Assembly: GCF_002356555.2 (NCBI RefSeq)
Contig: NZ_AP017372.2
Coordinates: 186,001 to 250,000, forward strand
Source: Halorhodospira halochloris
GTDB lineage: Bacteria; Pseudomonadota; Gammaproteobacteria; Nitrococcales; Halorhodospiraceae
Length of the DNA stretch: 64,000 nucleotides
Reading direction: 5' to 3'
Made by a program: the position numbers and the translations under genes. This document shows positions 261 to 62,130 of this stretch, piece after piece (within the stretch, counting starts at the first letter, position 1; each line of letters starts with the position of its first letter). The notes beneath the pieces are model-generated. The model saw only the letters and a list, made by a program, of their open reading frames with translations, was not told where the DNA came from and ran no database searches.

Positions 261-454
261 TGCCGTTTTCCTGCTGGTAAATCGCATTAGTAAAGCTAGG
301 CTAAAAGTGATTGGGAGGGCTGGTAGCCTAATCTGCTAAAATCGCCAGCCATCTTCAACTAGTTCCTATTGTGCTTTATTCGATCGAATGGATGCAGTAT
401 GCCTGATAGCCAATCCAATAGCGGCGGAGAACAAATTATCACCGGTACCAATAG

Positions 455-603
455 GGCGCCTCTGAAAGCTTCCCCGGAGCCATCATCTGCCCCGGTGTGG
501 AGGTGTTGGCGCCAACGAGGGCGCCATAAAGGCTCCAGGGATGGACTCACGGCGCCCTCCACACCGGGGCAGATGATGGCTCCGGGGAAGCTTTCAGAGG
601 CGC
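455..603 (+). repeat. Palindromic element copy 1
   Basis: The cleanest member of the window's 13-copy family. Its arms at 456-503 and 556-603 are a perfect 48-bp inverted repeat. The roughly 50-bp centre holds two GGCGCC boxes and the CTCCA-GGGA-TGGA mini-hairpin. It lies in the leader of the downstream hydrolase, whose frame happens to stay open through the element. Confidence 0.95.
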
Positions 604-629
604 TCGATAGGCGCAACGAAACAAGAGGG

Positions 630-1775
630 ATGCTAGCTTTTAACCGGCAGCTTAGCGGTTGGGCAAAGATCCCCATTATGGCTCCTTTGCTGGCGCTGTG
701 TGCCTTCTTTCTGATCGGCTGTGCCAGTGTTGAACGAAGCTACCAGGCCAATCTCTTTTTGCATGATATACAAGCCCAGCCGGATGACGAAACATGGCTG
801 AAGAGACGCACCGATGAGCCGAGCAAGGAAGAAATATCTTTCGAGATCAATGATGCAGAGCATCAGGCTTTGCTATATCGCCCTTATGACAGCGCAGCTG
901 GCTCTATAGTCTTGGTGCCTGGATTAATTGAAGAGGGCATAAACGATCAGCGGCTCAAGGGCTTTGCGGAAAGCCTGGCCAGGCTAGGCTACAGAGTGAT
1001 GTTACCCAACCTGGCAGATACGCAAGATATGCGCTGGGGCCCAGAGTCCATCAACAGAGTTAGTAAAGCCCTAAGCCATATGGCCAACAGGGATGGCAGT
1101 CAGCAGCTGCCCCTAGGTGCAGTTGCCATGAGCGCCATGGGAGCGCCTACCTTGGTGGCAGTGGCTGAAGACGATTTTGAGAGCAAAGTTGATTTTGTGG
1201 CTTTGGTTGGCAGCTATTACGACCTAAAGGCTTGGGTGGAGTACGTGACCACAGGTTATGACAGCGTTGAAGGTTCTGATCAGCTAACCCCGGAAGATGG
1301 CCTTCGCTGGCAGTTGCTAAAGCATGTAGCCCATTGGCAAGGTTCAGATGAGGATAGAGAGTGGCTCAGCCAGATGGTGCAAAGACGCCAGGCAAATCCC
1401 GAGGCCACTATAGACGTGGAGCTTAGCGCCTTGTCTAGTGGGGCAGCGAGCGTTGCTGAGCTGATGATAAATGAAAAGCAGGAAGATTTTGCGCGGCTTT
1501 ACGATGAATTGGCCGAGAATTACCGCGATTCGATGGCAAGGTTGGATCTTTCTGAGAGGGATTGGGACGAGTTCCAGCCTGATTTGATTCTGATCCACGG
1601 CACCCGTGATCGCATCATCCCCTTTTCCCACAGTGTGGCTCTTAGCGAAGCTGTCCCCGATGCCAAGCTTTATCGAATCACTGGCCTCTCGCATACTGAA
1701 TTAGATCCGGGACGCTTTGATTCCTTACGGCTGTGGCGGGCGGCAGCGGCAATTCTAGATTATCGGGTAGAATAG
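630..1775 (+). CDS. Alpha/beta-hydrolase lipoprotein
   Basis: Predicted 381-residue secreted hydrolase. The chosen ATG gives a charged start, a hydrophobic segment and a lipobox LIGC with the lipidated Cys at residue 31, so the protein is probably membrane-anchored. A later ATG at 678 would give a more compact lipoprotein signal and cannot be excluded; AGAGGG abuts the 630 start. A candidate triad is visible: Ser168 in AMSAMG (an atypical nucleophile elbow), Asp327 in HGTRDR and His355 in GLSHTE. The open frame extends back to 369, but that part is palindromic element and unlikely to be coding. Substrate unknown. Confidence 0.75.
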   Translation: MLAFNRQLSGWAKIPIMAPLLALCAFFLIGCASVERSYQANLFLHDIQAQPDDETWLKRRTDEPSKEEISFEINDAEHQALLYRPYDSAAGSIVLVPGLIEEGINDQRLKGFAESLARLGYRVMLPNLADTQDMRWGPESINRVSKALSHMANRDGSQQLPLGAVAMSAMGAPTLVAVAEDDFESKVDFVALVGSYYDLKAWVEYVTTGYDSVEGSDQLTPEDGLRWQLLKHVAHWQGSDEDREWLSQMVQRRQANPEATIDVELSALSSGAASVAELMINEKQEDFARLYDELAENYRDSMARLDLSERDWDEFQPDLILIHGTRDRIIPFSHSVALSEAVPDAKLYRITGLSHTELDPGRFDSLRLWRAAAAILDYRVE

Positions 1776-1796
1776 CGTTGAGTGTGACTCAACAGG

Positions 1797-1949
1797 GGAT
1801 CTCCAAAAACCCTTCCTGGAGCCACCCCACTACCTCGGTGTGGATATCTTGGCGCCCGGAATGGCGCCATGAAGCCATCCTGGGATGGATTCACGACGTC
1901 CTCTACGCCGGGGCAGTGGAGTGGCTCCAGGGAGGGTTTTTGGAGTTTC
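1797..1949 (+). repeat. Palindromic element copy 2, with flanking 9-bp direct repeats
   Basis: Diverged member of the family between the hydrolase and lpxD (tandem genes). CTCAACAGG occurs directly before it (1788-1796) and directly after it (1950-1958), as a target-site duplication would. The arms pair with several mismatches; the two central GGCGCC boxes are kept. Confidence 0.9.
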
Positions 1950-2002
1950 CTCAACAGGTTTAATTAGAAGCTCCCGGTTAGGAGCAAAGGGGGAGACTGG
2001 AT

Positions 2003-3031
2003 ATGAGCCAGCAGGAGTGGACGCTGCAGGCATTAGCCGAGCAGGTTGGCGGGCGAGTTGAGGGAGATGCCGGCAAGGTGGTTAGGGGGGTGGCTTCGCT
2101 GCGTACGGCAGGCGAGGAAATGGTTACCTTCTACCAGGGTGGCAGTTATCGCAAGCTCCTCGCAAATACCGCGGCGGGCGCCGTGATACTGGCGGCAGAG
2201 GATCTAGATGATTGCCCCGTTGCGGCGATAGTTGCTGAAGAGCCGCGCAAGGCTTTTGCCAGAGTGGCTCAGTTGCTAGGCAGGCAAAGGCCGCAAGTGC
2301 AGCCGGGGGTTGACCGTACGGCGAGTGTGTCAGACCAGGCTGAGGTTGATCCGAGCGCACGTATTGGTCCTTACGTGGTAGTAGAAGAGGGGGCTTGGAT
2401 CGGGCCGGAAGTAGAACTAGGGGCGGGTAGTTTCATTGGCAGCGGGGCGAGGATAGAGGCGGCGAGCGTAATCAGCCCGCAGGTGCACATAGGCTGGGAT
2501 TGCCGGATAGGTAAGCGTGCCTACCTTCACCCAGGTGTCATTATTGGCGCAGACGGCTTTGGTTTTAACCGCGGGGACCAGGGGTGGGAGAAAATCCCTC
2601 AGTTGGGCGCGGTCACCATAGATGATGATGTTGAGATCGGAGCCAATACCACGGTTGATCGCGGCACGCTGGAGGATACTGTTATCGGTGCTGGGGTGAA
2701 ATTGGATGCTCAGGTCCATATCGGCCATAACTCACAGATTGGTGCTAGGACTATCATAGCCGGTTGTGCTGGGGTTGCAGGCAGTGTGGTAATCGGTGAA
2801 GACTGCGTAATAGCCGGGGCCTGTGCCTTGACCGACCATATTGAGATTTGTGCGGGGGTGACGGTAATGGGTATGACCGGGGTTACCAACTCTATAAAAG
2901 AGCCTGGTATTTATGCATCTGCTCCTCCGATGCAGGCGCTGCGGCAATGGCGCAAAAGCGCGGTGCGGATTACTCAGCTCGATGATATGGCCAAGAGGCT
3001 GCAGAGCCTGGAGCGGCAAAATAGCGAGTAA
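2003..3031 (+). CDS. lpxD: UDP-3-O-(3-hydroxyacyl)glucosamine N-acyltransferase LpxD
   Basis: 342 residues, normal for LpxD, the third step of lipid A synthesis (N-acylation of UDP-3-O-acylglucosamine by acyl-ACP). The N-terminal 100 residues form the uridine-binding domain. From about residue 105 there are left-handed beta-helix hexapeptide repeats. The catalytic-His motif HIGHN is present (His242 is the likely equivalent), and a C-terminal helix ends the protein. It stands alone rather than in the usual bamA-skp-lpxD-fabZ-lpxA cluster, so it may be a second copy. The ATG at 2003 follows GGGGGAGA. Flanked by palindromic elements on both sides. Confidence 0.93.
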   Translation: MSQQEWTLQALAEQVGGRVEGDAGKVVRGVASLRTAGEEMVTFYQGGSYRKLLANTAAGAVILAAEDLDDCPVAAIVAEEPRKAFARVAQLLGRQRPQVQPGVDRTASVSDQAEVDPSARIGPYVVVEEGAWIGPEVELGAGSFIGSGARIEAASVISPQVHIGWDCRIGKRAYLHPGVIIGADGFGFNRGDQGWEKIPQLGAVTIDDDVEIGANTTVDRGTLEDTVIGAGVKLDAQVHIGHNSQIGARTIIAGCAGVAGSVVIGEDCVIAGACALTDHIEICAGVTVMGMTGVTNSIKEPGIYASAPPMQALRQWRKSAVRITQLDDMAKRLQSLERQNSE

Positions 3032-3057
3032 CGTCCCTTATCCTGATACCTCGTTAT

Positions 3058-3274
3058 AACCTTTAGGGAAGTATTGCCAGATAGCACATTTACTTGTGTC
3101 TAAAAAAGCCCCCCCTCGGAGCCATAGCTGCCCGGTGTGGAGGTCTTGGCGCCAGGGATGGCGCCATGAAGCCTCCAGGGATGGATTGACGGCGTCCTCC
3201 ACACCGGGCAGCTATGGCTCCGAGGGGGCTTGGGGAACACGTGTAGGCGCTACCTGAATACTTCCCTAAAGGTT
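3058..3274 (+). repeat. Palindromic element copy 3 with extra outer inverted repeat
   Basis: Core arms at about 3107-3232 enclose the standard centre. An additional perfect 18-bp inverted repeat (3058-3075 and 3257-3274, containing CTTTAGGGAA) lies outside, separated from the core by unrelated spacer. It sits between the convergent lpxD and HNH genes, where it could serve as a two-way terminator. Confidence 0.92.
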
Positions 3275-3306
3275 AGCAAGAGCCCTGCCTGCAGGATTGT
3301 GGGGCG

Positions 3307-3894
3307 CTAAACCTCGGTGCGTTGGCGAAGTCGGCTGCGGCGCGGAAAATGTGACCGCAGAAACTCCATCTGGTCAGCCAAGATGCGCCGGCCTTGCAGG
3401 TAGACATACTCGGCGTGGGTAGGAGTAAATGGAACTGCTATCAACTGCATGCCGGCGGACTCGGGGGTGCGGTCGCCCTTGTGGTTATTGCAGCGCTTGC
3501 AGGCGGTTACTACGTTGTTCCAGGTGTTGGCGCCGCCACGGCTGACCGGGGTGACGTGATCACGGGAGAGGTCCGAGTTGCGGAACTGTTTGCCGCAGTA
3601 CATGCAGATGTTGGCATCGCGGCGGAAGAGTGTTGGATTGTTGAGTGGCGGGGTGTAGCTTGTCCTGCCCTTGAGGGAGGCCTGCTGCGAGCCTTCGGTG
3701 GCTATTATTGAGTTCAGGTCAATAGCCGATCGCCGCCCGGTGGTGGAGTTATAGCCACCCCTGACTCGGTAGAGTGTGCTGCCGCACGAATAAGCCACCT
3801 GCTCTAAGTAGTAGTAGCGTACCGCCTCTTCATAGCCGATCCACTCGAGCGGCATGCCAGAGATGTCAGTACGCAGGATTCTATGCTCGAACAC
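3307..3894 (-). CDS. HNH endonuclease family protein
   Basis: 195 residues. The HNH domain occupies about residues 88-142, with zinc-binding pairs Cys97/Cys100 and Cys132/Cys135. The catalytic D112-H113 pair is followed by the GG-x-NTWNN stretch and a CNNHKG end. The N-terminal 85 residues resemble the conserved leader of stand-alone chromosomal HNH proteins widespread in proteobacteria; they are not the toxin or intron-linked kind. Role in the cell unknown. Convergent with lpxD across palindromic element copy 3. Confidence 0.88.
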   Translation of the reverse strand: MFEHRILRTDISGMPLEWIGYEEAVRYYYLEQVAYSCGSTLYRVRGGYNSTTGRRSAIDLNSIIATEGSQQASLKGRTSYTPPLNNPTLFRRDANICMYCGKQFRNSDLSRDHVTPVSRGGANTWNNVVTACKRCNNHKGDRTPESAGMQLIAVPFTPTHAEYVYLQGRRILADQMEFLRSHFPRRSRLRQRTEV

Positions 3895-14926: not shown

Positions 14927-16621
14927 CTAGCCCCGCTGTTTTTGTTCCGCCATCAGCCCAGGGAGGCTGACTGTGACAGGTTCTATGGCTTGGGTTTTGG
15001 GTTCGGCTTTGCCCTTGGCTGCGGTATATATATCATTACCTGCCGACTTGTTGCTGCTTGGTGTTGTACTGCTAATGCCTAGCCTCTGGCTTAACTGAGC
15101 GGGATCGAGATTGCTGAATTCCTTCTCCATCTCTGCTATGCGCTTATCCAGGGCCGCGACTCGCTCCGGGGTTAACTGAGCAGTTGCTGCTGCGGTGTTA
15201 GCAGTGGAGTGGGCAGGCTCAGGAGCCTGTTGAGCCAGTTTATGCTTATAAGAGTCCAGAGAAAGACGCAATTCCGCCGTTAACTCACGAAAGGGCTTGG
15301 TTAACAGGAGGACAAAGGCGTGCTCGAAGAACTCTTCAGGGCTCCTCGATTTGATCGGATCGGGAGAAAGCTCGAGGGTTGCTAGGCTGGTATTGGCCTG
15401 AGAGCCTATGCCTTCAGCTTCTAATACCTCTAAAACCGGTTCAATGGTCGCCTCGTTGCGTTTCTCGCCCCAGAAGCGAAATTCAGCGAATGCGGGCACG
15501 GGTAGAATAAATAGACCGCTCAATGCGGGAGTTTTGGTAGTGGTATCAGTTCTCTTGAACAGCTCCTGTTCGCGTGGCCAGAGTAGGTTTGCAGCAAATC
15601 TGACCATTTCAGCGGCATTCTTGTGTAAGTTTGCGTAGCTCTTAGCGTACCAACCCCGGTCGGCAAAGGAGCGGCGGATGAAATCAACCTTAATGCGTTG
15701 AGATAAGGCTTCTCTAACCTCTTGCCAATCAATCTCAGGCCCTTTGCGCTGCCGTGGGCGCTGCGGCTCGGTGAGATTGTCTAGGGCGGTTTGAATCGTA
15801 GTGGGCAGCTGCTGAGCTGAATGGTAGAGAGGCTGCTTAGGGCGCTCCAACTCCCTGACCTGCTCGGGCTCAACCAGGTTGCGCCAGTCAAAATCATGCC
15901 CCAAGGCCTTCTCCAGGACCTTGTCGGCCTCATCGCCAAGGCGTTCGGCCTCTGCCTCCAGGTTGCCGGTGATTAGCTGAGAATTTGGCGGCGAGCCTAG
16001 GCGCCATTGGATTTCGCTCTCAACCCTTATTGGTTCAAGCAACTCAATCTCCTGGGCGTCGGCGTCGATATTGTTCTGTAACGACTCCTGCAGCGATTTA
16101 CAGAGCATTTCCAGGCACTTAATGCGCGATGCCTCGTGGCCGTTGGCAGTGCCCGCGGAGCCGGCAGGTGATTGGCTCAGCAATGTGCAGAACAAGCTCA
16201 GTTCTTCAGCATAGCTGCTGAGCTGCCGCTCGCGTTCGTCTGTAGCAAGACGCAGGGCCTTGCGTGGCTTAATTATGCCTTGGTCGGCGATACTTATGAC
16301 TTTATCGTAGGCGCTTACCGTCTGCTCGGTTCGGGCATGCTGCAGGGCTTGATTGGCTGCCGTGCGGCGCCGGATGATGCCGGCTAGCCCCAAGCCTAGC
16401 CTAACTAATAACCATATTGCTAATAGTAGCGCGCTGAGCATGGCGCCCCACTCGGCGATTTGAGGGGCCAAGTACAGCGCCTCACTGCCGAGGTGCCGCT
16501 CAAGCTCTACCGCTAGAGGTTCTAGTTGCGGATCAGTGATATGTCCTTGTTGCCAAGCCAAGTAACTGCCTAGCCACACGAGCGCCAGCAGTAGCCCAGT
16601 GAGCTTTATGCCCCGTAGCAT
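14927..16621 (-). CDS. Unknown inner-membrane protein upstream of hldE
   Basis: 564 residues that I do not recognise. Two hydrophobic segments lie at about residues 5-23 and 60-85. A long hydrophilic region follows with helical, charged stretches, and a Ser/Thr/Ala-rich linker sits near 445-465. The short helix around 470-490 (LDKRIAEMEKEFSNL) looks coiled-coil. AGGAGG stands five bases before the ATG. The TAG is one base from the possible hldE start, so the pair forms an operon; this suggests, but does not prove, a role in envelope or LPS biology. No catalytic motif seen. Confidence 0.6.
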   Translation of the reverse strand: MLRGIKLTGLLLALVWLGSYLAWQQGHITDPQLEPLAVELERHLGSEALYLAPQIAEWGAMLSALLLAIWLLVRLGLGLAGIIRRRTAANQALQHARTEQTVSAYDKVISIADQGIIKPRKALRLATDERERQLSSYAEELSLFCTLLSQSPAGSAGTANGHEASRIKCLEMLCKSLQESLQNNIDADAQEIELLEPIRVESEIQWRLGSPPNSQLITGNLEAEAERLGDEADKVLEKALGHDFDWRNLVEPEQVRELERPKQPLYHSAQQLPTTIQTALDNLTEPQRPRQRKGPEIDWQEVREALSQRIKVDFIRRSFADRGWYAKSYANLHKNAAEMVRFAANLLWPREQELFKRTDTTTKTPALSGLFILPVPAFAEFRFWGEKRNEATIEPVLEVLEAEGIGSQANTSLATLELSPDPIKSRSPEEFFEHAFVLLLTKPFRELTAELRLSLDSYKHKLAQQAPEPAHSTANTAAATAQLTPERVAALDKRIAEMEKEFSNLDPAQLSQRLGISSTTPSSNKSAGNDIYTAAKGKAEPKTQAIEPVTVSLPGLMAEQKQRG

Positions 16622-31715: not shown

Positions 31716-31868
31716 GGGAACCTCTAAAAACCTCCCCGGCGCCATTATCTGCCCCGGTGTGGAGGTCTTGGCGTCAGGGATGGCGCCATGAAGCCTCCAG
31801 GGATGGATCCACGGCGTCCGCCACACCGGGGCTGATAATGGCGCCGGGGAGGTTTTTTTGAGGTTCCC
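31716..31868 (+). repeat. Palindromic element copy 7
   Basis: Near-perfect copy. GGGAACCTCTAAAAACC on the left mirrors GGTTTTTTTGAGGTTCCC on the right. The variable arm segment ATTATC pairs with GATAAT, and the inner hairpin tolerates a G-U pair (TGGCGTCA opposite TGGCGCCA). It lies between the promoters of divergent rpmE2 and the MgtE-N-like gene and could insulate them. Confidence 0.96.
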
Positions 31869-35195: not shown

Positions 35196-35346
35196 GGGCG
35201 CTTCGAAAATCTGGTCCGGAGCCAGTAGTTGCCCCGGTTTGGAGGTCTTGGCGCCAAGGATGGCGCCATGAAGCCTCCAGGGATGGATTCACGGCGTCCT
35301 CCAAACCGGGGCAACTACTGGCTCCGGGCCAGATTTTCGAGGCGCC
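35196..35346 (+). repeat. Palindromic element copy 8
   Basis: Arms differ strongly from other copies yet match each other: AGTAGT pairs with ACTACT, and CCGGTTTGG pairs with CCAAACCGG where most copies have CCGGTGTGG. Located 26 bases from the MITE-like element, between glcB and uvrA. Confidence 0.95.
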
Positions 35347-35451
35347 ATTAATTAACCAAGCTGCGCGCGCAGTTAGCTTGCCAAACGGCGGCCATATCAG
35401 GAAAGTTAGGCATGCACATTTAGCCACCCACGGCCAGTTGAGCTAACCTCA

Positions 35452-44430: not shown

Positions 44431-44580
44431 AGGGAACCTCAAATAACTCCCTTTGAGGCTAGCTGCGCCGGTGTCGAGGACGTCGTTAATCCATCCCGCG
44501 AGTCGCCGTGGAGTTATTCCCGGCGTCGAACCTTGCGCACCGAGGCAGCAAGGCTCTGGTGGGAGACTTTAGGGGCGCCC
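44431..44580 (-). repeat. Palindromic element copy 10 (degenerate, downstream of RAYT-like gene)
   Basis: Starts AGGGAACCTC and ends GGGGCGCCC; the centre (GAGGACGTCGTTAATCCATCCC, read in two parts) matches the reverse orientation but the pairing is heavily eroded. Its right end overlaps the last codons of the HARP gene (stop at 44569). Confidence 0.8.
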
Positions 44581-45762: not shown

Positions 45763-45924
45763 GGGGAAACTCTAACCCCCCCCCCCCCCCCCCCCTGGAG
45801 CCAATCATCCGCCCCGGAGTGGAGGTCTTGGCGCCAGGGGTGGTGCCGTGAAGCCTGCAGGGAAGGATTCACGGCGCCCTCCACACCGGGAAGCAGGGCT
45901 CGGGGGGAGCTGTTAAAGGCTACC
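45763..45924 (+). repeat. Palindromic element copy 11 with a 20-C homopolymer
   Basis: A run of 20 C residues (45776-45795) stands where other copies have a short CCCC in the left arm. The rest of the element is recognisable but loosely paired. Between convergent pilA and the PP0621-family gene, 19 bases after the pilA stop. Confidence 0.9.
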
Positions 45925-50527: not shown

Positions 50528-50678
50528 GGGCACCTCGAGAAGCTCCCCCGGCCTGACTGGTTGTCCAGGCTTGAAGGACGCCGTTAATCCGTCCCTGGAG
50601 GTTCATGGCGTCAGACCAGGTGCCGAGACCTTCACGCCTGGGCAAACAGTCAGACCGGGGGAGCTTCTCGAAGTGCCC
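50528..50678 (-). repeat. Palindromic element copy 12 (most diverged arms)
   Basis: Arms read GGGCACCTCGAGAAGC... and ...GCTTCTCGAAGTGCCC: very different from the family consensus but still complementary over nearly 50 bp. The centre is reverse orientation. Between convergent glnB and bamD. Confidence 0.92.
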
Positions 50679-61967: not shown

Positions 61968-62130
61968 CCCTTAGGGAACCTCTAAAAACTTCGCCGGCGC
62001 CACCATCCGCCCCGGTGTGGAGGACGCCGTGAATCCATCCCTGGAGGCTTCATGGCGCCATCCCTAGCGCCAAGACCTCCACACCGGGGCGGATGGTGGC
62101 GCCGGCGAGGTTTTAGAGGTTCCCTAAGGG
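61968..62130 (-). repeat. Palindromic element copy 13
   Basis: Arms extend outward to CCCTTAGGGAACC / GGTTCCCTAAGGG. The variable part ACCATCCG pairs exactly with CGGATGGT. The inner hairpin has one G-U pair. In the 374-base gap between the GGDEF-EAL gene and aspS; the rest of that gap shows no other feature. Confidence 0.95.

Follow-up and report, generated by a model that had tools for sequence, protein, structure and literature searches.

A nine-base repeat beside lpxD very probably contains the four-base target-site duplication of a high-copy palindromic MITE

RESULTS AND DISCUSSION

The palindrome upstream of lpxD

The window, the whole 64-kb stretch of DNA analysed (C1:186001-250000), belongs to a genome (G000) of 2,834,560 bp in a single contig. 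A long palindrome, here called copy 2, occupies the gap between lpxD and the gene upstream of it (Table 1). The nonamer CTCAACAGG stands on the plus strand on both sides of this palindrome, as the first-pass annotation had reported, and a third occurrence lies on the minus strand at 15226-15234. The long inverted repeat between the two flanking nonamers was detected independently, with arms at 1796-1844 and 1902-1950. The annotation placed the nonamers exactly at the element borders. They do flank copy 2, but three bases of the left nonamer (AGG) and two of the right (CT) fall within the element as other copies define it. In addition, CTCAAC of the left nonamer forms the 3' portion of GTTGAGTGTGACTCAAC, a small palindrome of the host at 1777-1793.

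Table 1. Features of the lpxD locus and family copies in the window (window coordinates)
Feature	Position	Strand	Basis
Copy 1, 152 bp, exact 4-bp repeat absent (AATA / GATA)	454..605	+	family alignment
Upstream gene (hydrolase in the first-pass annotation; no Pfam match)	630..1775	+	ORF and Pfam search
Left CTCAACAGG: CT host, CAAC duplication, AGG element start (putative partition)	1788..1796	+	sequence match
Putative left target-site duplication CAAC (4 bp)	1790..1793		family statistics
Copy 2 of the mobile palindrome, 158 bp, AGGGGATCTCC...GGAGTTTCCT	1794..1951	+	ends by family alignment; one extra left-end G assumed
Left terminal inverted repeat of copy 2; family consensus GGGAACCTCTAAAAAC	1794..1812	+	alignment
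Conserved head of copy 2: end of long stem and two small hairpins	1836..1916	+	fold, alignment
Right terminal inverted repeat of copy 2	1933..1951	-	alignment
Right CTCAACAGG: CT element end, CAAC duplication, AGG host (putative partition)	1950..1958	+	sequence match
Putative right target-site duplication CAAC (4 bp)	1952..1955		family statistics
lpxD, downstream gene	2003..3031	+	ORF and Pfam search
Copy 3, older, different outer arms	3111..3228	+	inverted-repeat detection
Full-length copy	31716..31868	+	family alignment
Full-length copy	35196..35347	+	family alignment
Copy, diverged	44432..44580	-	family alignment
Full-length copy, diverged	50528..50678	-	family alignment
Full-length copy	61974..62124	-	family alignment

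Architecture and copy number of the family

Alignment of the copies, together with folding, gives a family element some 152 bp long. Terminal inverted repeats GGGAACCTCTAAAA bound it, and between them a long stem leads to a Y-shaped hairpin head. The head contains two small hairpins with GGGA loops. A 32-base head pattern, allowing up to three mismatches, has 258 matches in the genome (146 on the plus and 112 on the minus strand), and its reversed control has none. This is an undercount, because a looser pattern finds 12 heads in the 64-kb window, and we estimate several hundred copies. Exact GGGAACCTCTAAAA ends number 63 in the genome, with none for the reversed control, and the terminal inverted repeats match at 10 or more of 14 positions at both ends in 101 of 156 copies. 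By a simple ORF call, 10 of the 12 window heads lie between frames of at least 150 aa; the other two fall inside frames, copy 1 in a 5' extension and the head at 44478 within one member of an overlapping pair of opposite frames. Rfam at gathering score gave 0 matches in the window and six loci.

The neighbor of copy 3 is an HNH endonuclease gene (window 3307-3894, minus strand, Pfam HNH_5). Around copy 3 lies an outer inverted repeat (3050-3075 and 3257-3282, AACCTTTAGGGAAGTATTGCC) that is similar to the outer arms found on head repeats in genome G009 (AACCTTTCGGAAGGTATTGTC), which hints at an older type of element in the G000 genome. For the copy whose head is at 45862, the left arm includes a run of about 20 C at about 45770-45795. 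Locus L009 (about 1441-1630) holds a variant of 189 bp whose left end is extended and whose outer borders repeat TTTG, and part of this extension is common to L006 and L011.

A four-base duplication at the borders of the family

Borders were called from the terminal repeats alone, and the flanks were never used. A copy was analysable when both ends matched at 10 or more of 14 positions; 55 of the 156 copies were dropped for poor ends. The 156 copies, drawn from at least 258 in the genome, are enriched for intact ends, and later loci were partly chosen for exact ends. Expectations were obtained by pairing left flanks with the right flanks of other copies. In the first sample (110 copies, not chosen by terminal repeats) 30 of 66 analysable copies carry an exact 4-bp border repeat, while 0.62 were expected. 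The extended sample gives 53 of 101 against 1.0 expected and a maximum of 8 in 20000 shuffles; the other 48 analysable copies have no exact 4-bp repeat. Other end thresholds yield 55/137, 55/114, 46/76 and 24/37. The excess of flanking duplications that the first-pass annotation proposed to look for genome-wide is therefore present, but at 4 bp rather than 9 bp, and its impression that copies other than copy 2 lack clear duplications does not hold genome-wide. Its view that copy 2 moved as a MITE-like unit, and that the repeat marks a target-site duplication, is supported.

Flank identity exceeds expectation at exactly four positions in the first sample. For the next base on either side of the four, matches are 42 versus 41.5 and 42 versus 41.1 predicted by composition (n=53), so that identity stops at 4 bp once composition is allowed for. 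The target has C before the four bases in 43 of the 53 copies and G after them in 44, and is of the type C|NNNN|G. Apparent repeats extend to 5-10 bp because these flanking C and G match the last C and first G of the element itself. The repeat is found in 37/55 copies with head identity of at least 0.98, then in 9/21, 6/18 and, below 0.90, 1/7. This loss with age is as expected for a decaying insertion scar.

Nested copies offer ready-made empty sites. Three insertions lie inside other family copies: L063 (TGGA), L085 (ATGA) and L155 (TCTA). When the insert and four bases are removed, the host repeat is restored in each, with a joint that is gap-free against the family consensus (L063, 49 columns with 3 mismatches and no gap; L085, an alignment of 56 columns; L155, no gap at the joint). 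At L085 the ATGA of the host is preceded by C and followed by A, while the element ends with T and starts with G. Host and element bases differ on both sides, and the duplication is therefore exactly 4 bp unless the site has mutated. Further nested candidates were not counted as proof, because gaps are needed to align L037, L054 and L070, no exact repeat is present at L052 and L154, the match of L027 is weak and the score of L149 lies at the limit.

The same ends also occur on elements that have no head. In the same-genus genome G002 they bound elements some 79 bp long. GTAA flanks the elements of L235 and L232 on either side, an exact repeat is absent from L228, L230 and L231, and in L229 one appears only if the end is shifted. 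A head-less element of 89 bp in G000 (L047) has AACA repeated, and the head-less pairs L097 and L179 have no repeat. The ends therefore act without the head. Together these data settle the movement chemistry of the family as a 4-bp staggered insertion at C|NNNN|G, made at the element ends.

The ends and the duplication of copy 2

Copy 2 is an old, diverged copy, and its target, with T before and A after, is not of the preferred type. Its left end reads AGGGGATCTCC and its right end, reversed, AGGAAACTCC; in most other copies the two ends are equal in length. We consider it very probable that copy 2 belongs to a high-copy, non-coding MITE that is mobilised by a transposase and duplicates 4 bp at C|NNNN|G, here CAAC. 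Copy 2 would have inserted into the gap between the upstream gene and lpxD. A transposase recognising the terminal repeats (GGGAACCTCTAAAA and variants) would make staggered cuts 4 bases apart at a C|NNNN|G target, and gap repair would leave the 4-bp duplication. With a length taken from the family, the duplication of copy 2 is most likely CAAC, and the rest of the nonamer (CT and AGG) most likely reflects element ends that happen to equal the neighboring host bases. This reading requires a one-base insertion in the left end, which would carry one extra G. It leaves A/T as the outermost base, a feature shared with several copies, among them L018 and, at its proven right end, L085.

With ends of consensus length (GGGGATCTCC and GGAGTTTCCT, the two being equal), copy 2 would instead share a 5-bp repeat, CAACA. 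This reading is unlikely, since no 5-bp excess appears in the family register in the first sample, among the rows with at least two matches.

Chance is a weaker candidate. The same nonamer twice at a spacing of 100-220 bp is not rare as such in the window, where 63 identical pairs occur, copy 2 is old, and the small host palindrome at 1777-1793 could have helped. A match of at least 9 bases that spans both borders is rare by chance, however: pairing left flanks with the right flanks of other copies predicts about 0.3 per 101 copies, and 7 real ones are seen, copy 2 included. We regard coincidence as very unlikely.

The six others (L009, L037, L070, L159, L047 and L063; 9-10 bp) each consist of a 4-bp duplication plus an element-like flank, and such long matches arise because targets often have C before and G after, as the element ends do. 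They also bear on the proposal of the first-pass annotation that a different enzyme, making a 9-bp duplication, moved copy 2 as an element running from GGATCT to GTTTC. The nonamer is exact, and insertion sequence families that duplicate 8-9 bp exist. However, the element would then stop three and two bases short of the termini that the family shares. A 9-bp duplication outside the terminal repeats, as in IS903-like and other 9-bp-duplicating insertion sequences, is not what the family displays. Given the six matches of the same make-up, a separate 9-bp enzyme is not accepted, and we rate it as highly improbable. With CAAC as the probable duplication, the apparent clash of a single 9-bp duplication with the REPtron model is removed.

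The corresponding gap could not be aligned with those of relatives because LpxD proteins are only 40-56% identical in 13 of them. Searches of a contig collection returned no relative of the upstream protein and no match to an exact head pattern.

Search for the mobilising enzyme

RAYT/IS200 chemistry is not known to make a target duplication. A 4-bp stagger of insertion at a target that is symmetrical suggests a DDE transposase. The mobiliser of the family is probably of the DDE type, cutting at the element ends. Movement by REP/RAYT (REPtron), that is, single-strand transposition of a hairpin without duplication, would fit the hairpin head, the high copy number and the relatives that carry the head on other stems with border repeats not clearly in excess. 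The 4-bp duplications contradict it for the family, and a search with PF01797 found no RAYT gene flanked by repeats in the G000 genome. The six PF01797 places are IS200/IS605-like: four of them, when scanned, score 81-126 bits for IS200/IS605 (cut-off 55) and 21-27 bits for RAYT (cut-off 80), and five of the six adjoin a TnpB-like frame. One place has a head in its fetched flanks. The conflict with a simple RAYT/IS200 model that the first-pass annotation had pointed out thus stands for the family, and we consider REPtron movement the least probable of all the readings weighed. IS605-like units with TnpA and TnpB occur in the genome at L091, L092, L093, L095 and L096, some apparently truncated.

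Inspection of ends and the profiles PF01609, PF05598 and PF13340 revealed no autonomous partner with the family ends, and such a partner may have been lost. All 38 of the 63 exact ends that were inspected are on head-bearing short elements. PF01609 has six places, four of which were scanned and correspond to IS1634, IS1380 (two) and IS4. The family ends, at up to four mismatches, are absent from their fetched flanks, with the sole exception of a small head-less pair beside L097. No transposase was found with PF05598, and none over cut-off with PF13340 in 9 genomes. The exact ends at 2144722 and 2147202 of G000, separated by 2.5 kb, were considered as a transposon, but they belong to separate short elements. 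A search of plasmids for the head gave one weak match and a search of phages none.

The head in related genomes

Among 60 genomes the full element is present in G000 only. The head alone has matches in 13 of the 59 relatives, with different stem sequences. In these 13 (L104-L122 and L188-L227) the two-eared head, GCCTCCAGGGATGGATTCACGGCGT, has a fixed first ear of 27-29 bases and sits on long, perfect stems that differ in sequence between copies. Direct repeats at the stem borders are found in 3/15 copies in G038 (2.64 expected), 1/10 in G053/G049 (0.56), 0/4 in G002/G010 (0.67) and 2/5 in G009/G011 (0.0); no clear excess is seen in these tiny samples of 4-15 per group. Since the stems of relatives differ and show no clear excess of border repeats, the data suggest an older head that spread by another route and that, in the G000 lineage, travels inside transposon ends.

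Comparison with known systems

The MITEs covered in PMC10969869 include Correia/NEMIS, ERIC, RUP and others, with ERIC reaching 711 copies in Photorhabdus luminescens. Like bacterial MITEs as described there, the family is short, non-coding, intergenic and present in high copy, with terminal inverted repeats and direct repeats at its borders. It differs from described MITEs in that its whole length forms one long hairpin capped by a two-eared head, which also occurs on other stems in related genera. The ends, the C|NNNN|G target and the 4-bp duplication together match none of the described families compared. By anatomy and scar the family is a MITE, with terminal inverted repeats and target-site duplication both present and no autonomous partner found in the searches above; mobility in trans is predicted. 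Hairpins, high copy number and intergenic position are shared with REP/REPIN elements mobilised by RAYT. Unlike these, the family is larger, has terminal repeats and duplications, and comes with no RAYT.

The nearest printed description found is that of Halothiobacillus neapolitanus in PMC3733652, where CGTC-1 REP dimers lie within 41-bp palindromes of consensus GGGaaGCTT-GAAAaACC ... GGTaTTTCgAAGC-gCCC. The palindrome ends given there closely resemble the family ends GGGAACCTCTAAAAACC, and GGGAGCCTCGAAAAACC in G002. That account treats CGTC REPs as having no dedicated transposase and reads the palindromes as targets; the words 'target site duplication' are absent from its main text. By the features it states for CGTC REPs (CGTC outside an 8-9-bp stem starting with AT pairs, a loop of 4-5 and a CCA tail), compared by eye with the fold, the family head is not one of them: its CGTC lies 3' of the second hairpin, and stem and tail differ. 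A class-wide search for H. neapolitanus-type ends matched 6 of 369 genomes versus 3 control matches and gave no convincing transposon; its range did not reach Halothiobacillus. A literature search with head and end strings returned no relevant paper within a coverage that takes in few subscription papers. Coverage being partial, we make no claim of a previously undescribed family.

A two-layer element is a tentative reading that we find plausible, if somewhat short of probable. An order-wide Y-headed repeat would have been enclosed by cut-and-paste transposon ends and multiplied to hundreds of copies; in relatives it would have spread without clear duplication, and template switching between the arms would keep the stems paired. 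If so, the H. neapolitanus REP dimers in near-identical palindromes would be a second case, and such ends would serve generally to carry REP-like repeats that lack their own transposase. The family bears on a question left open in PMC3733652, namely how REP-like repeats spread without a dedicated transposase; here transposon ends carry a hairpin head as cargo.

Variation of stems and ends among copies

The arms of the long stem covary. In 54 copies (columns 9-43 with 115-150) changes on both sides are found at 36 of 50 stem pairs, and paired changes number 190 cells versus 58 in shuffles. When 20 young copies that differ little from one another are compared, 14 paired double changes (12 distinct) are seen in the inner arms, along with 32 single changes. 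The double changes exceed what independent mutation would give, and arm-to-arm copying by template switching (PMC8794818) is the likeliest explanation.

The two ends of a copy are seldom alike, the same outer 7-mer standing at both ends in just 4 of the 53 copies with 4-bp repeats. A GGGAACC end is mostly paired with GGTGGCC or GGGTGCC, and this pairing takes both orientations with respect to the head (19 versus 8), as if the unequal ends were fixed while the head flips inside them.
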